A stretch of DNA of 64,000 nucleotides, taken from NCBI RefSeq assembly GCF_000797465.1, contig NZ_JSWG01000012.1, positions 248,001 to 312,000 of the forward strand, given 5' to 3'. This stretch comes from Psychroserpens jangbogonensis (GTDB taxonomy: Bacteria; Bacteroidota; Bacteroidia; Flavobacteriales; Flavobacteriaceae). The notes under the pieces are model-generated. The model was not told the DNA's origin and ran no database searches. It saw only the letters and a program-made list of their open reading frames with translations. The position numbers and the translations under genes were made by a program. Below, piece by piece: positions 30,068 to 45,393 of this stretch (position 1 is the stretch's first letter; each line of letters starts with the position of its first letter).

Positions 30068-31150
30068 TTAATGATTAATAATCTTCTCTTGATGATTAAT
30101 TGATTCTTGGTGAATGGCCTTAAACATGCGTAAGATAAACTCTTCACTAAGTCCTTTTTCATCACCTTCCATAACCATTTTTCCTAAAATCTCATTCCAA
30201 CGTTTACTTTGTAATACAGCAACGTTCTTTTGTTTTTTAAGTTCACCTATTCCATCGGCTACTTTCATTCGCTTTCCTAATAACTCAATAAGCTGATTAT
30301 CTACAACATCAATTTGAGCTCTTAAATTATTAAGTTCGTTATTATATTCTGCCTCAGGATCCGTTTCTTTTCTAATTCTTAAATCATTCATGATATGCAC
30401 CAATCGATTTGGAGTCACTTGTTGTGCAGCATCACTCCATGCATTATCAGGATCGAAATGAGTTTCAATCATTAATCCGTCAAAATTTAGATCTAATGCC
30501 GTTTGAGACACATCAAAAATCATATCACGTTTACCAGTAATATGTGAAGGATCATTTATTAATGGCAAATCTGGAAATTTAGTTTGTAATTCAATAGCAA
30601 TCTGCCATTCTGGATTGTTACGATATTTAGATTTTTCATAAGTTGAAAACCCTCTATGAATTACGCCTAAGTTTTTAATGTTAGCAGACGCTAAACGTTC
30701 AATAGCTCCTAACCATAATGCTAAATCTGGATTTACTGGATTTTTAACCAATACAATTTTATCTGTCCCTTTTAATGCATCTGCAATTTCTTGTACAATA
30801 AACGGACTTACAGTTGATCGTGCACCAATCCACAATAAATCGATATCATGTTCTAATGCAAGTTCTACATGGTTTCTATTGGCAACTTCTGTTGCTGTTT
30901 TTAAGCCAGTTTCTTCTTTTACTTTTTGTAGCCATTTTAAACCCAAAGCTCCAACGCCTTCGAAGTTTCCTGGACGTGTTCTAGGTTTCCAGATACCAGC
31001 TCTATAATAATTTACATCTGTATCTTTAAGCTCATGAGCTATTTTTAAAACTTGTTCTTCTGTCTCTGCACTGCATGGTCCTGCAATTACTAAAGGATGA
31101 TTTAAACCTAAATCATCCAACCATGTTCTCATTTCTTTTTTATTCTCCAT
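30068..31150 (-). CDS. Bifunctional DAHP synthase/chorismate mutase
   Basis: A 360-residue fusion. Residues about 1-260 are a class I beta (KDO8P-like) DAHP synthase with AGPCSAET, YRAGIWKPRTRPG and HFDPDNAWSDAAQQ. Residues about 275-355 are an AroQ chorismate mutase (LNNLRAQIDVVDNQLIELLGKRM...ELKKQKNVAVLQSKRW). The first joins phosphoenolpyruvate and erythrose-4-phosphate at the head of the shikimate pathway, the second turns chorismate to prephenate. The mutase domain probably gives feedback control. It is last in the attenuated aromatic operon, 8 bp after tyrA. Confidence 0.93.
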   Translation of the reverse strand: MENKKEMRTWLDDLGLNHPLVIAGPCSAETEEQVLKIAHELKDTDVNYYRAGIWKPRTRPGNFEGVGALGLKWLQKVKEETGLKTATEVANRNHVELALEHDIDLLWIGARSTVSPFIVQEIADALKGTDKIVLVKNPVNPDLALWLGAIERLASANIKNLGVIHRGFSTYEKSKYRNNPEWQIAIELQTKFPDLPLINDPSHITGKRDMIFDVSQTALDLNFDGLMIETHFDPDNAWSDAAQQVTPNRLVHIMNDLRIRKETDPEAEYNNELNNLRAQIDVVDNQLIELLGKRMKVADGIGELKKQKNVAVLQSKRWNEILGKMVMEGDEKGLSEEFILRMFKAIHQESINHQEKIINH

Positions 31151-31158
31151 AATCTTTA

Positions 31159-32010
31159 TTATGCAATACCGTTTAATATGTCTTTTATATGATTTGTACT
31201 TTGCATTTCTTTATATATCTCGTCGAAATCATTAGATTCCATTAACGCTTTGAACTGTTTTAAATTATTGATGTATTCATCAAGTGTTTCTATGACGTTC
31301 TCTCTATTTTGTTTAAAAATTGGTGTCCACATTGCTGGAGAACTTTTTGCCAATCGCACAGTACTTTCAAAACCACTGCCTGCCATATCGAAAATATCGC
31401 GTTCATTTTTTTCCTTTTCAATTACTGTTTTTCCTAACATAAAAGAACTTATATGCGACAAATGCGACACATAAGCGATGTGTTTATCATGTGCTTCAGG
31501 ATTCATATACCTAATACGCATTCCTAAGTCTGAAAATAACTGCAAAGCTTTCTCTTGAAGTTTAAAAGTTGTCTTTTCAACTTCACAGATAATATTTGTT
31601 TTCTTCTGAAACAGTCCGTGAATAGCTGCTTTGGGTCCTGAAAACTCTGTACCAGCAATAGGATGCGTTGCTAAGAAATTACGTCGCATTTTATGATTTT
31701 CAATTGCTTTACAAACAGGATCCTTAGTCGAACCAACGTCAATGACAAGTGCTCTATCTGAAATAGCATCTAACACTTTTGGCAATTCTAATACGGCTTT
31801 ATCCACAGGAATAGAAAGCACAACTAAATCGGCTTCTTTTAAATCACCATAGCTTGCTTTTTCATCAATAACATTGAGTTTTAAAGCATCATCTAAATGG
31901 GAATCGTTAGTATCTATTCCGAAGACTTTAGCATGTTTATTATTAGACTTTATATCTAATGCTATACTTCCTCCAATTAAACCAACTCCTATGATGTATA
32001 TCTTATTCAT
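31159..32010 (-). CDS. tyrA: Prephenate dehydrogenase
   Basis: A 283-residue NAD(P)-dependent enzyme with a Rossmann start (IYIIGVGLIGGSIALDIK), VLSIPVDKAVLELP, DVGSTKD, and THPIAGTEFSGPKAA with the prephenate-site His. It converts prephenate to 4-hydroxyphenylpyruvate for tyrosine. No ACT domain is seen. It lies 3 bp after the aminotransferase gene and directly before the DAHP synthase fusion. Confidence 0.92.
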   Translation of the reverse strand: MNKIYIIGVGLIGGSIALDIKSNNKHAKVFGIDTNDSHLDDALKLNVIDEKASYGDLKEADLVVLSIPVDKAVLELPKVLDAISDRALVIDVGSTKDPVCKAIENHKMRRNFLATHPIAGTEFSGPKAAIHGLFQKKTNIICEVEKTTFKLQEKALQLFSDLGMRIRYMNPEAHDKHIAYVSHLSHISSFMLGKTVIEKEKNERDIFDMAGSGFESTVRLAKSSPAMWTPIFKQNRENVIETLDEYINNLKQFKALMESNDFDEIYKEMQSTNHIKDILNGIA

Positions 32011-32013
32011 TCT

Positions 32014-33159
32014 TTATTTCAATCTTTCTAAGGCTTCTTCCAAATCATCTTGAGATGCACAAAGCGATATTCTTATATATCCTTTTCCGTTAGTACCAAA
32101 AATTGTTCCTGGTGCAATAAATACTCCTTTTTCTTTTAGAATTAAATCAATGTATTCTTCAGCATCTAAATAATCTGGAAGTTTACACCACACAAATAAT
32201 CCAGTAGCATTTGAATCGTACGTGCACTTAAGTGCTTCTGCAATTTTCCAAACGATTTGTCGTCGTTGCTCATAAACACTATTAAGGCTTAAGTACCACA
32301 TATCTGAGCAATTCAATGCTTCGATGGCTCCTTTTTGAATGCCTAGAAACATCCCAGAATCCATATTGCTTTTTACACGTAATACTGCAGCAATATATTC
32401 GGTTTTACCCAATAACATTCCTACTCGCCAACCCGCCATATTGAAGGTCTTACTTAACGAATTTAACTCCAAACACACGTCTTTAGCATCTCGATATTTC
32501 AAAATACTTCTTGGGTAACGGTTTAAAACAAAACTGTAAGGATTATCGTTAACAATTAATATATTATTACGCTTAGCGAAGGTTATTAAATCTTCAAATA
32601 GTTTATTTGTTGCTTGAGCACCAGTTGGCATATGCGGATAATTTACCCACATTATTTTCACCTTTTCAAGACCTCTTTTTTCTAAAGCGATAAAATCTGG
32701 AAACCAATGATTCTCTTCGGTTAAATCGTAAAAAACTGGCTTTGCTCCAACCAATTTAGTTACAGATTGATATGTTGGATAACCAGGATTAGGAATCAAT
32801 ACCTCATCACCTTCATTTAAAAATGCTAAAGAAATGTGCAAAATCCCTTCTTTACTTCCAGCAAGAGGTAACACTTCTGTTAACGGACTTAAAGGCACAT
32901 TAAAATGTCGTTTATAAAATCCTGCCATGGCTTCTCTCAATTCTAGAATACCTTGGTAACTTTGATATTTATGTGCACCATCTTCATTAAAAACTTCAAC
33001 CATTGCGTTAAGAACACGTTCTGGTGGATTCAAATCAGGACTCCCAATTCCTAAATTAAGGATGGGTTTCCCTTGAGCCTTTAGTAAGTTTACTTCTCTA
33101 AGTTTTTTTGAAAAGTAATACTCTTCAACATTTTTTAATCGGTCAGCAATCTGTATCAT
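32014..33159 (-). CDS. Class I/II aminotransferase, probable aromatic
   Basis: A 381-residue PLP enzyme: GIGSPDLNPP, GSKEGI, NPGYPTY, WVNYPHMPTG, NDNPYSFVL and the PLP-binding Lys in SLSKTFNMAGWRVG. It overlaps the pheA stop by four bases and sits before tyrA, so it most probably transaminates phenylpyruvate and hydroxyphenylpyruvate to Phe and Tyr. The class also includes aspartate and diaminopimelate enzymes, and specificity rests on context. Confidence 0.85.
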   Translation of the reverse strand: MIQIADRLKNVEEYYFSKKLREVNLLKAQGKPILNLGIGSPDLNPPERVLNAMVEVFNEDGAHKYQSYQGILELREAMAGFYKRHFNVPLSPLTEVLPLAGSKEGILHISLAFLNEGDEVLIPNPGYPTYQSVTKLVGAKPVFYDLTEENHWFPDFIALEKRGLEKVKIMWVNYPHMPTGAQATNKLFEDLITFAKRNNILIVNDNPYSFVLNRYPRSILKYRDAKDVCLELNSLSKTFNMAGWRVGMLLGKTEYIAAVLRVKSNMDSGMFLGIQKGAIEALNCSDMWYLSLNSVYEQRRQIVWKIAEALKCTYDSNATGLFVWCKLPDYLDAEEYIDLILKEKGVFIAPGTIFGTNGKGYIRISLCASQDDLEEALERLK

Positions 33160-33983
33160 AGTCTTGCATTTTTATATTCGCCCAAAACTTTAAAATCTTG
33201 TGCCATGATTTCCATAATGGACTTCGCTTTCTTATAATCATTATAGGTATCAAATGTTACATCAACGAAAAAAGCATATTTCCAAGGTGTTTCAATTTTT
33301 GGGAGTGATTGTATCTTTGTTAAATTTAACTTACAATCACTTAATACATTCAAAATAGTCGCTAAACTTCCTCTTTTATGGTCTAATTCAAATTTTATTG
33401 ACGCTTTATTGATTTCTACCTCTGGTATTTCAGAGTTTTTAGTCTTTACAATAAAAAATCGTGTTTCATTATGCTTTATCGTTTGTATACTTTCTGCTAA
33501 AATTTCGAGTTCAAATAATTCTGCAGCCAATCGAGATGCAATTGCTGCAACGTGTTTTGATTGATTGGCTTGAATCCTTTGCGCAACTTCAGCAGTATCT
33601 TTATCTTCAATTAACTTGATATGTGGATATTGCTTAAAGAATGCTTTACACTGCAATAATGCCATTGGATGAGAATATACTTCTTTAATATCATCTATAG
33701 TTTGGTTTGGCAAGGCCATTAAATGATGTTGAATATCTAAATAATGCTCTCCAACAATATGTAAACCAAAATTATCGATTAGTGCATAATTAGGAATTAT
33801 AGAACCTGCTATAGAATTTTCAATAGCCATGATAGCCGCATCATCTTTAGCATTCAGTATGCTATCAACCACACCATCAAATGTTAGGTATTCTGATACA
33901 CTAATCGTTTCATCAAAAAATTGCTGTGACACAATGTGATGAAAAGACCCTTTAACTCCTTGTATGGCTACTGATTTAATCAT
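33156..33983 (-). CDS. pheA: Prephenate dehydratase
   Basis: I choose ATG 33981-33983 (MIKSVAIQGVKGSFHH, 275 residues); an earlier in-frame ATG lies inside the terminator stem and is excluded by it. It has GVKGSFHHIVSQQFF, IENSIAGSI, YSHPMALLQCKAF and ETRFFIV with the catalytic Thr, and a C-terminal ACT domain (about residues 190-270, KRGSLATILNVLSD, LTKIQSLP) that binds phenylalanine. It decarboxylates and dehydrates prephenate to phenylpyruvate. There is no chorismate mutase domain here; that is on the DAHP synthase. It is the first gene of the attenuated operon. Confidence 0.94.
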   Translation of the reverse strand: MIKSVAIQGVKGSFHHIVSQQFFDETISVSEYLTFDGVVDSILNAKDDAAIMAIENSIAGSIIPNYALIDNFGLHIVGEHYLDIQHHLMALPNQTIDDIKEVYSHPMALLQCKAFFKQYPHIKLIEDKDTAEVAQRIQANQSKHVAAIASRLAAELFELEILAESIQTIKHNETRFFIVKTKNSEIPEVEINKASIKFELDHKRGSLATILNVLSDCKLNLTKIQSLPKIETPWKYAFFVDVTFDTYNDYKKAKSIMEIMAQDFKVLGEYKNARL

Positions 33984-34011
33984 AAAAAAAGTCTCGATTT
34001 TCATCGAGACT
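33984..34011 (-). terminator. Attenuator terminator abutting the pheA start
   Basis: On the minus strand: AGTCTCGAT, loop GAAA, ATCGAGACT, then T7 (33984-33990), which is directly followed by the pheA ATG. The 9-bp stem and U-run make an intrinsic terminator between leader and structural gene. Full termination would silence the whole aromatic operon. Confidence 0.85.
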
Positions 34012-34052
34012 CATATTATATTTATTAGAATAAATTATACATATAACGTCTC
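34006..34052 (-). promoter_or_regulatory. Antiterminator pairing in the pheA leader
   Basis: The arm GAGACGTTATAT (34041-34052) starts 7 bases after the leader stop codon. It can pair with ATATAAT and GTCTC (34015-34021 and 34006-34010, with a 4-base bulge) at the foot of the terminator, using GTCTC that belongs to the terminator 5' arm. The two structures are mutually exclusive, as needed for ribosome-mediated attenuation. Confidence 0.65.
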
Positions 34053-34058
34053 TCTCTT

Positions 34059-34112
34059 TTAGCTAAAAAAGAAATAAAACCAGCTATAATATGTATTATT
34101 TATTGTGTTCAT
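34059..34112 (-). CDS. pheL: pheA leader peptide (Phe/Tyr/Trp codons), 17 residues
   Basis: A short frame on the minus strand, ATG 34110-34112 to TAA 34059-34061, encodes MNTINNTYYSWFYFFFS. Residues 8-16 hold three Tyr, one Trp and four Phe, so it senses the supply of charged aromatic tRNAs. It is followed by an antiterminator and a terminator just before pheA. A ribosome stalled at the Phe codons would leave the antiterminator arm free; one reaching the stop codon would cover it and let the terminator form. The symbol follows the E. coli name for the same function; homology is not implied. Confidence 0.85.
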   Translation of the reverse strand: MNTINNTYYSWFYFFFS

Positions 34113-43028: not shown

Positions 43029-43192
43029 GAGCATTTTTCTTATACATCAAAAATTTATCAAGGTCCTCAAAATAAATCTCGCTTTATAGGTAGCGTAATT
43101 AAACCAAAAGTCAAATAGACTTTTTGTCGAGTGTACTTAATAGAAAATGTTAAAAAGAAAATGCGTAAAAACAGGTGAGTAATTACGTTTGG

Positions 43193-43314
43193 GTTATCTA
43201 TCCAGTTTTCGATTAATGAATCGAAAGTCTAAGTAGAATTTAGCACCTTCTTTGATAAATTCAAAGGGTTGCTAAGGTTTCATAGGGTCTAATCCCTCCA
43301 CCTTTCTTGATAAC
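43193..43314 (-). promoter_or_regulatory. SAM-I (S-box) riboswitch controlling metH-metH-metF
   Basis: On the minus strand, P1 pairs GTTATC (43309-43314) with GATAAC (43193-43198). Between them are the S-box motifs in order: AAGAAAGGTGGAGGGA, GACCCTATGAAACCT, TAGCAACCC, AAGGTGCTAAATTC, and a last hairpin (TTTCGATTCATTAATCGAAA). These are the conserved SAM-I core and kink-turn sequences. The aptamer lies 165 bases upstream of metH. The gap 43029-43192 holds a weak 7-bp hairpin (43106-43124) with a poor U-run, so the output may be at translation or by an unclear terminator. Confidence 0.93.
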
Positions 43315-43344
43315 ATTTCAGTAAGTTCTTGAACTTTGTGAACA

Positions 43345-45242: not shown

Positions 45243-45255
45243 TCATCAATAAAAA

Positions 45256-45325
45256 AAGAGGAAAAATTTGTTCTGATTGCAACCTCTTATACTGAAAACT
45301 CAGTATACTAAAAATGCTAATGCAG
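45256..45325 (+). promoter_or_regulatory. SAM-II-type riboswitch, long-loop variant, upstream of metK
   Basis: P1 pairs AAGAGG (45256-45261) with CCTCTT (45283-45288). Its loop has AAAAATTTG then CTGATTGCAA, as in SAM-II (AUUU, then AUUGCAA before the P1 3' arm). After P1 an extra hairpin is inserted (ATACTGA, AAAC, TCAGTAT, 45289-45306), then AAAATGCTAATGCAG, where GCTAA matches the SAM-II core and CAG pairs with CTG of the loop to close the pseudoknot. The match is to motifs I know from SAM-II; the hairpin makes it a long-loop form. It lies 68 bases before the metK ATG. Confidence 0.72.
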
Positions 45326-45393
45326 TTAGTTTATAACTTCTCTAGCGACCAAGCAATCTCAACAAAAATATAGAAACAAATATTTAAGAGATT

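Follow-up and report, generated by a model that had tools for sequence, protein, structure and literature searches.

A putative ribosome-mediated attenuator upstream of the pheA operon in Psychroserpens and other Flavobacteriaceae

Known pheA leaders and the Psychroserpens operon

The pheA operon is listed among attenuated operons, and its attenuation is established in Escherichia coli and Salmonella (PMC1183508). In these bacteria, the Phe-rich leader pheL precedes pheA and is followed by an antiterminator and a terminator that have an arm in common. The trpL leader follows the same logic, in which a ribosome at the stop codon covers arm 2 and a stalled ribosome frees it, but its regulatory codons and target operon differ from those of the leader described here. 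Candidate attenuators of amino-acid operons, some of them in Bacteroidetes/Chlorobi, were reportedly collected in a 2004 survey by Vitreschak et al. Leader-like sORFs in B. thetaiotaomicron have received a passing remark (PMC7366714).

One of the closest described elements comes from a 2021 transcriptome paper on F. psychrophilum, which reports an element upstream of pheA that is conserved in Flavobacteriaceae, transcribed, structured and absent from Rfam, along with clues to leader-peptide attenuation upstream of amino-acid operons (PMC9723704). Neither a leader sequence nor helices nor a mechanism is given for the element in the main text of that paper. The element and the leader studied here share gene, family and lack of an Rfam match, and the common gene and family suggest that they are the same. 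Attenuation before pheA is thus hinted at in that paper and is not wholly new; with the precedents in E. coli and Salmonella and the clues in F. psychrophilum, the mechanism is of a known kind. The preliminary description of this locus knew of no experimental work for the family. That statement overlooked the reported element, but it stands for regulation, as no functional test of a pheA leader in Flavobacteriaceae was found in the literature. The present analysis adds the anatomy, spacing and phylogenetic reach of the element; it establishes how the parts are laid out and conserved, how the switch is spaced and that both helices covary.

The window, that is, the whole stretch of 64,000 nucleotides of Psychroserpens jangbogonensis DNA analysed, contains the operon on the minus strand. 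The prephenate dehydratase gene pheA (33156-33983; PF00800, 1.4e-54, with a weak ACT domain match) overlaps by 4 nt with a class I/II aminotransferase gene (32014-33159; PF00155, 6.9e-58). The prephenate dehydrogenase gene tyrA (31159-32010; NF006307, 394.7 bits with a cut-off of 295; PF02153 and PF20463) lies 3 nt downstream of the aminotransferase gene. A DAHP synthase-chorismate mutase fusion gene (30068-31150; PF00793 and PF01817) lies 8 nt downstream of tyrA and is the last gene before a convergent plus-strand gene. The four genes, which presumably form one transcript, are the set named in the preliminary description, and their order is preserved in 79 of 80 named relatives. In relatives, gldA is usually divergent upstream and rsgA is often found downstream. 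Unlike the E. coli pheL operon, the Psychroserpens operon includes tyrA and DAHP synthase. E. coli controls these two functions separately from pheA.

Anatomy of the leader region

The leader peptide frame, MNTINNTYYSWFYFFFS followed by a stop codon, spans 34112-34059 on the minus strand. Its regulatory codons are codons 8-16, which include three Tyr, four Phe and one Trp codons among nine residues (8/9 aromatic). This aromatic density is far from chance. When the intergenic region was shuffled 5000 times with its dinucleotides preserved, the highest count per nine codons was 7, reached in four cases, versus 8 in the real frame, and no ATG-started frame of 8-45 codons elsewhere in the whole window has more than 6 aromatic codons in nine.

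The leader differs from pheL in its phylum, in the presence of Tyr and usually Trp codons beside Phe codons, in having no Shine-Dalgarno context and in the lack of an Rfam match. The search of 33984-34112 for amino-acid leaders, T-box elements and riboswitches returned no relevant Rfam match at gathering and permissive thresholds. Since flavobacteria are reported to begin translation without Shine-Dalgarno sequences (PMC9723704), translation of the leader frame is taken as an assumption and is presumed in what follows.

A putative Bacteroidota-type sigma-A promoter is located at 34156-34128 (minus strand). It is composed of TTG (34156-34154), an 18-nt spacer and TACATTAG (34135-34128), the last of which lies 15 nt upstream of the leader ATG and has one mismatch to TAnnTTTG, the sigma-A box placed at -12 to -5 in F. 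psychrophilum (PMC9723704). Transcription is expected to start at about 34123, giving an 11-nt 5' UTR. A TAnnTT[ATC]G element precedes 97 of 101 leader frames, mostly at 10-20 nt from the ATG, while 0.13 such elements are expected per 90 nt in the window. The conservation of this element suggests that transcription starts upstream of the leader frame.

The intrinsic terminator, AGTCTCGAT-GAAA-ATCGAGACT, folds as a hairpin at 34011-33990 (minus strand) and is followed by a U-run reaching 33984. The pheA ATG comes directly after, at 33983. Two terminator-like sites, representing a single hairpin counted on both strands, are found against 0.1 expected, and the complete leader folds with a z of -5.6 relative to shuffles. 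The antiterminator hairpin extends over 34052-34006 on the same strand and pairs the arm 2 core GAGAC (34052-34048) with the arm 3 core GTCTC (34010-34006). It is predicted to form 20 pairs with an energy of -11.5 kcal/mol. Because GTCTC is also part of the 5' arm of the terminator, the two helices are mutually exclusive. A hairpin between arms 1 and 2, of the kind that would promote termination in the absence of translation, is additionally predicted for the Psychroserpens leader. This protector hairpin is inconsistent across relatives and was therefore left out as a requirement of the mechanism. A second in-frame ATG lies upstream of pheA within the terminator loop (34004-33984, minus strand), where MKIETFF precedes MIKS; relatives favour the later ATG as the start.

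The preliminary description had identified the aromatic frame at 34059-34112 as well as the terminator and the antiterminator with common bases, all of which are recovered here. Its details need some revision. It gave 12 antiterminator pairs where 20 are predicted, and seven bases from the stop codon to the antiterminator arm where six are counted. The direct abutment of U-run and ATG is correct for this locus but is not general, as the gap between terminator hairpin and ATG in relatives is 5-108 nt with a median of 21. Likewise, the length of 17 codons is right here, but most relatives possess leaders of 23-27 codons whose stop lies 3' of the arm 2 core. The short frame is a local shortening through an early stop; the PheA tree implies about six origins of stops that precede arm 2.

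Conservation, covariation and ribosome spacing

The aromatic leader frame precedes pheA in 101 of 102 Flavobacteriaceae loci with upstream sequence, and a terminator lies 3' of the leader in all 101 loci that have one. Locus L026 is the one without a leader, and L086 is truncated where its contig ends. The leader is kept in 23/23 genomes of the genus. It is also present in 78 of 80 named loci, a set overlapping with the 102; one of the two misses had just 150 nt of upstream sequence. The leader of a named Flavobacterium reads MATNRFYFSNNFYFFFSRS. All 101 family leaders contain at least three Phe and at least two Tyr codons, and 75 of them contain Trp. Phe and Tyr are thus likely the signals, with Trp being optional.

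Both helices covary among the relatives. In the terminator core helix (arms 3:4), 100% of cells are paired and 20 are doubly changed, versus 0.2 in shuffled alignments. In the antiterminator core (arms 2:3), 85.7% of cells are paired versus 80.7% after shuffling, arm 2 having been picked as the best complement within a region, a choice that favours finding one. Two of the five arms 2:3 columns are unpaired in many sequences in the fixed alignment. The covariation in arms 2:3, where a single pair is A-U in 34 sequences and G-C in 20, exceeds that in slid controls. Arm 3 GTCTC occurs mostly with arm 2 GAGAC or GAGGC, and GTCCC with GGGAC or GGGGC. About two events on the PheA tree account for the A-U/G-C exchange; at the third terminator position, joint changes with the pairing partner occurred three times. 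These counts point to several independent compensations in the terminator and few in the antiterminator; the compensatory changes common to both stems, as placed on the tree, reflect few events. The preliminary description had named the aromatic frame and covarying stems as features whose absence from relatives would speak against it. Both checks speak for the attenuator: the frame is almost universal in the family and both stems covary, with the changes common to the two stems amounting to few events.

The antiterminator region folds more stably than its own shuffles, with a median z of -3.65 and a z below -2 in 94 of 97 relatives. Seventy-three loci have arm 2 in codon frame 0 and 23 have it in frame 2, and the frame differs between the two main clades. 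This variation argues that arm 2 is kept by selection as RNA rather than as the end of the peptide.

The position of a translating ribosome was modelled with a footprint extending to +15 from the P site, its length being assumed to equal that of the E. coli ribosome. A ribosome halted on the final aromatic codon leaves the whole arm 2 core exposed in 93 of 97 modelled loci. With the ribosome at the stop codon, at least four of the five core bases are covered in 97/97, in keeping with the earlier claim that a ribosome at the stop blocks this arm, given the E. coli-like footprint. According to the model, the antiterminator forms with a probability of 0.5 or more in 94/97 loci when the ribosome occupies the last aromatic codon and in 0/97 when it occupies the stop; without a ribosome, the probability ranges from 0 to 1 among relatives. 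The spacing from the aromatic run to arm 2 is nearly constant at 14-15 nt.

Mechanism, alternatives and distribution

The locus combines an aromatic leader, an intrinsic terminator, an antiterminator sharing an arm with it, a switch spacing under the assumed footprint and an upstream sigma-A-like element. Conservation, covariation, spacing and promoter support the earlier reading as ribosome-mediated attenuation. The region is very likely a transcription attenuator that responds to charged tRNA-Phe and tRNA-Tyr, often also tRNA-Trp, and controls pheA, the aminotransferase gene, tyrA and the DAHP synthase/chorismate mutase gene. Transcription would begin some 11 nt upstream of the leader frame, with a ribosome trailing the RNA polymerase. 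When the supply of charged tRNA-Phe, tRNA-Tyr or, in this leader, tRNA-Trp is low, the ribosome would stall within codons 8-16 and leave arm 2 free to pair with arm 3, and the polymerase would continue into the four genes. When the amino acids are ample, the ribosome would reach the stop codon and its leading edge would cover arm 2. Arm 3 would then pair with arm 4, and transcription would stop just upstream of pheA. Termination and the response to each amino acid are what this layout predicts.

It is very improbable that the region is a constitutive terminator close to the promoter, or a 5' UTR hairpin, that merely dampens pheA while the short frame is incidental. The terminator itself is real, and AT-rich intergenic DNA easily yields Phe, Tyr, Lys and Asn codons, but shuffles fall short of the actual codon density and the aromatic run recurs in all but one of the family loci. 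The near-fixed distance to arm 2 and the conservation of a second, mutually exclusive helix also have no place in such an account. The structured 5' region with its alternative terminator might instead belong to a riboswitch or T-box that senses an aromatic amino acid without leader translation, and the pheA 5' element has been reported among structured elements without an Rfam match (PMC9723704). The search at the locus, T-box and riboswitch families included, gave no match, and what is strongly conserved upstream of arm 2 is a coding frame rich in aromatic residues. Together with the shift of the arm 2 codon frame between clades, this makes a ligand- or tRNA-binding riboregulator extremely unlikely.

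The leader peptide could also sense free Phe or Tyr in the exit tunnel through stalling of the nascent chain, as TnaC does with tryptophan, rather than tRNA charging. Some peptide motifs recur inside Flavobacteriaceae, such as YYNWFYFFF, and are more uniform than codon counts alone would need. Across the class Bacteroidia, by contrast, leader peptides vary freely apart from their aromatic content. In addition, a stall on excess amino acid would cause readthrough at times of ample product, whereas a stall on scarce charged tRNA has the right sense for a biosynthetic operon. Nascent-chain sensing is accordingly given hardly any credence, and the attenuator responding to tRNA charging is preferred.

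Such leaders extend beyond the family. Within the order, they are present in families f2, f3 and f8 and absent from the sampled loci of f10 and of f14, a family with small genomes. The f4 genomes whose PheA is divergent (about 30-35% identity; L184-L195) have no aromatic leader, which suggests that the gene was replaced there together with loss of the attenuator; the picture at one further f4 locus and in f13 is ambiguous. Outside the order, 14 of the 20 Bacteroidia loci sampled carry such a leader before pheA, with at least six aromatic residues in nine, and most of these 14 have a terminator.

The same genome (G000, rated 99.97% complete) contains a second leader, MNTNLNNTWWWNSRNSYFVN followed by a stop codon, which includes WWW. 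It is followed by GGCTTGTCATTCACGACAAGCC and a U-run, about 135 nt before a Chorismate_bind gene of the trpE/pabB type (L225, contig C61), and is likely a tryptophan attenuator. This leader and the one before pheA open with nearly the same residues (MNT..NNT), a possible hint of shared ancestry. As regards other amino acids, hisG has no match in this genome and acetolactate synthase (ilvB) has just a weak one; the strain may be without its own synthesis of histidine or branched-chain amino acids. The window also contains two SAM sensors of unrelated types close to each other, a SAM (S-box) riboswitch at 43191-43316 (minus strand) and a SAM-II riboswitch at 45252-45330 (plus strand), on opposite strands about 2 kb apart.

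The aligned leader set is large enough to build an RNA family model, and the analysis offers an explanation for the structured pheA element whose mechanism is not set out in the main text of the earlier paper (PMC9723704). Production of these enzymes is very probably confined to times when Phe or Tyr is in short supply. It seems fairly probable that, across much of Bacteroidia, one attenuator reads the charging of tRNA-Phe, tRNA-Tyr and often tRNA-Trp jointly and sets the DAHP synthase entry together with the Phe and Tyr branches, without Shine-Dalgarno starts. The findings suggest that classical attenuation operates in bacteria whose promoters and translation starts are unusual, and they provide a complete, testable model of how aromatic amino-acid synthesis may be controlled in much of a bacterial class.
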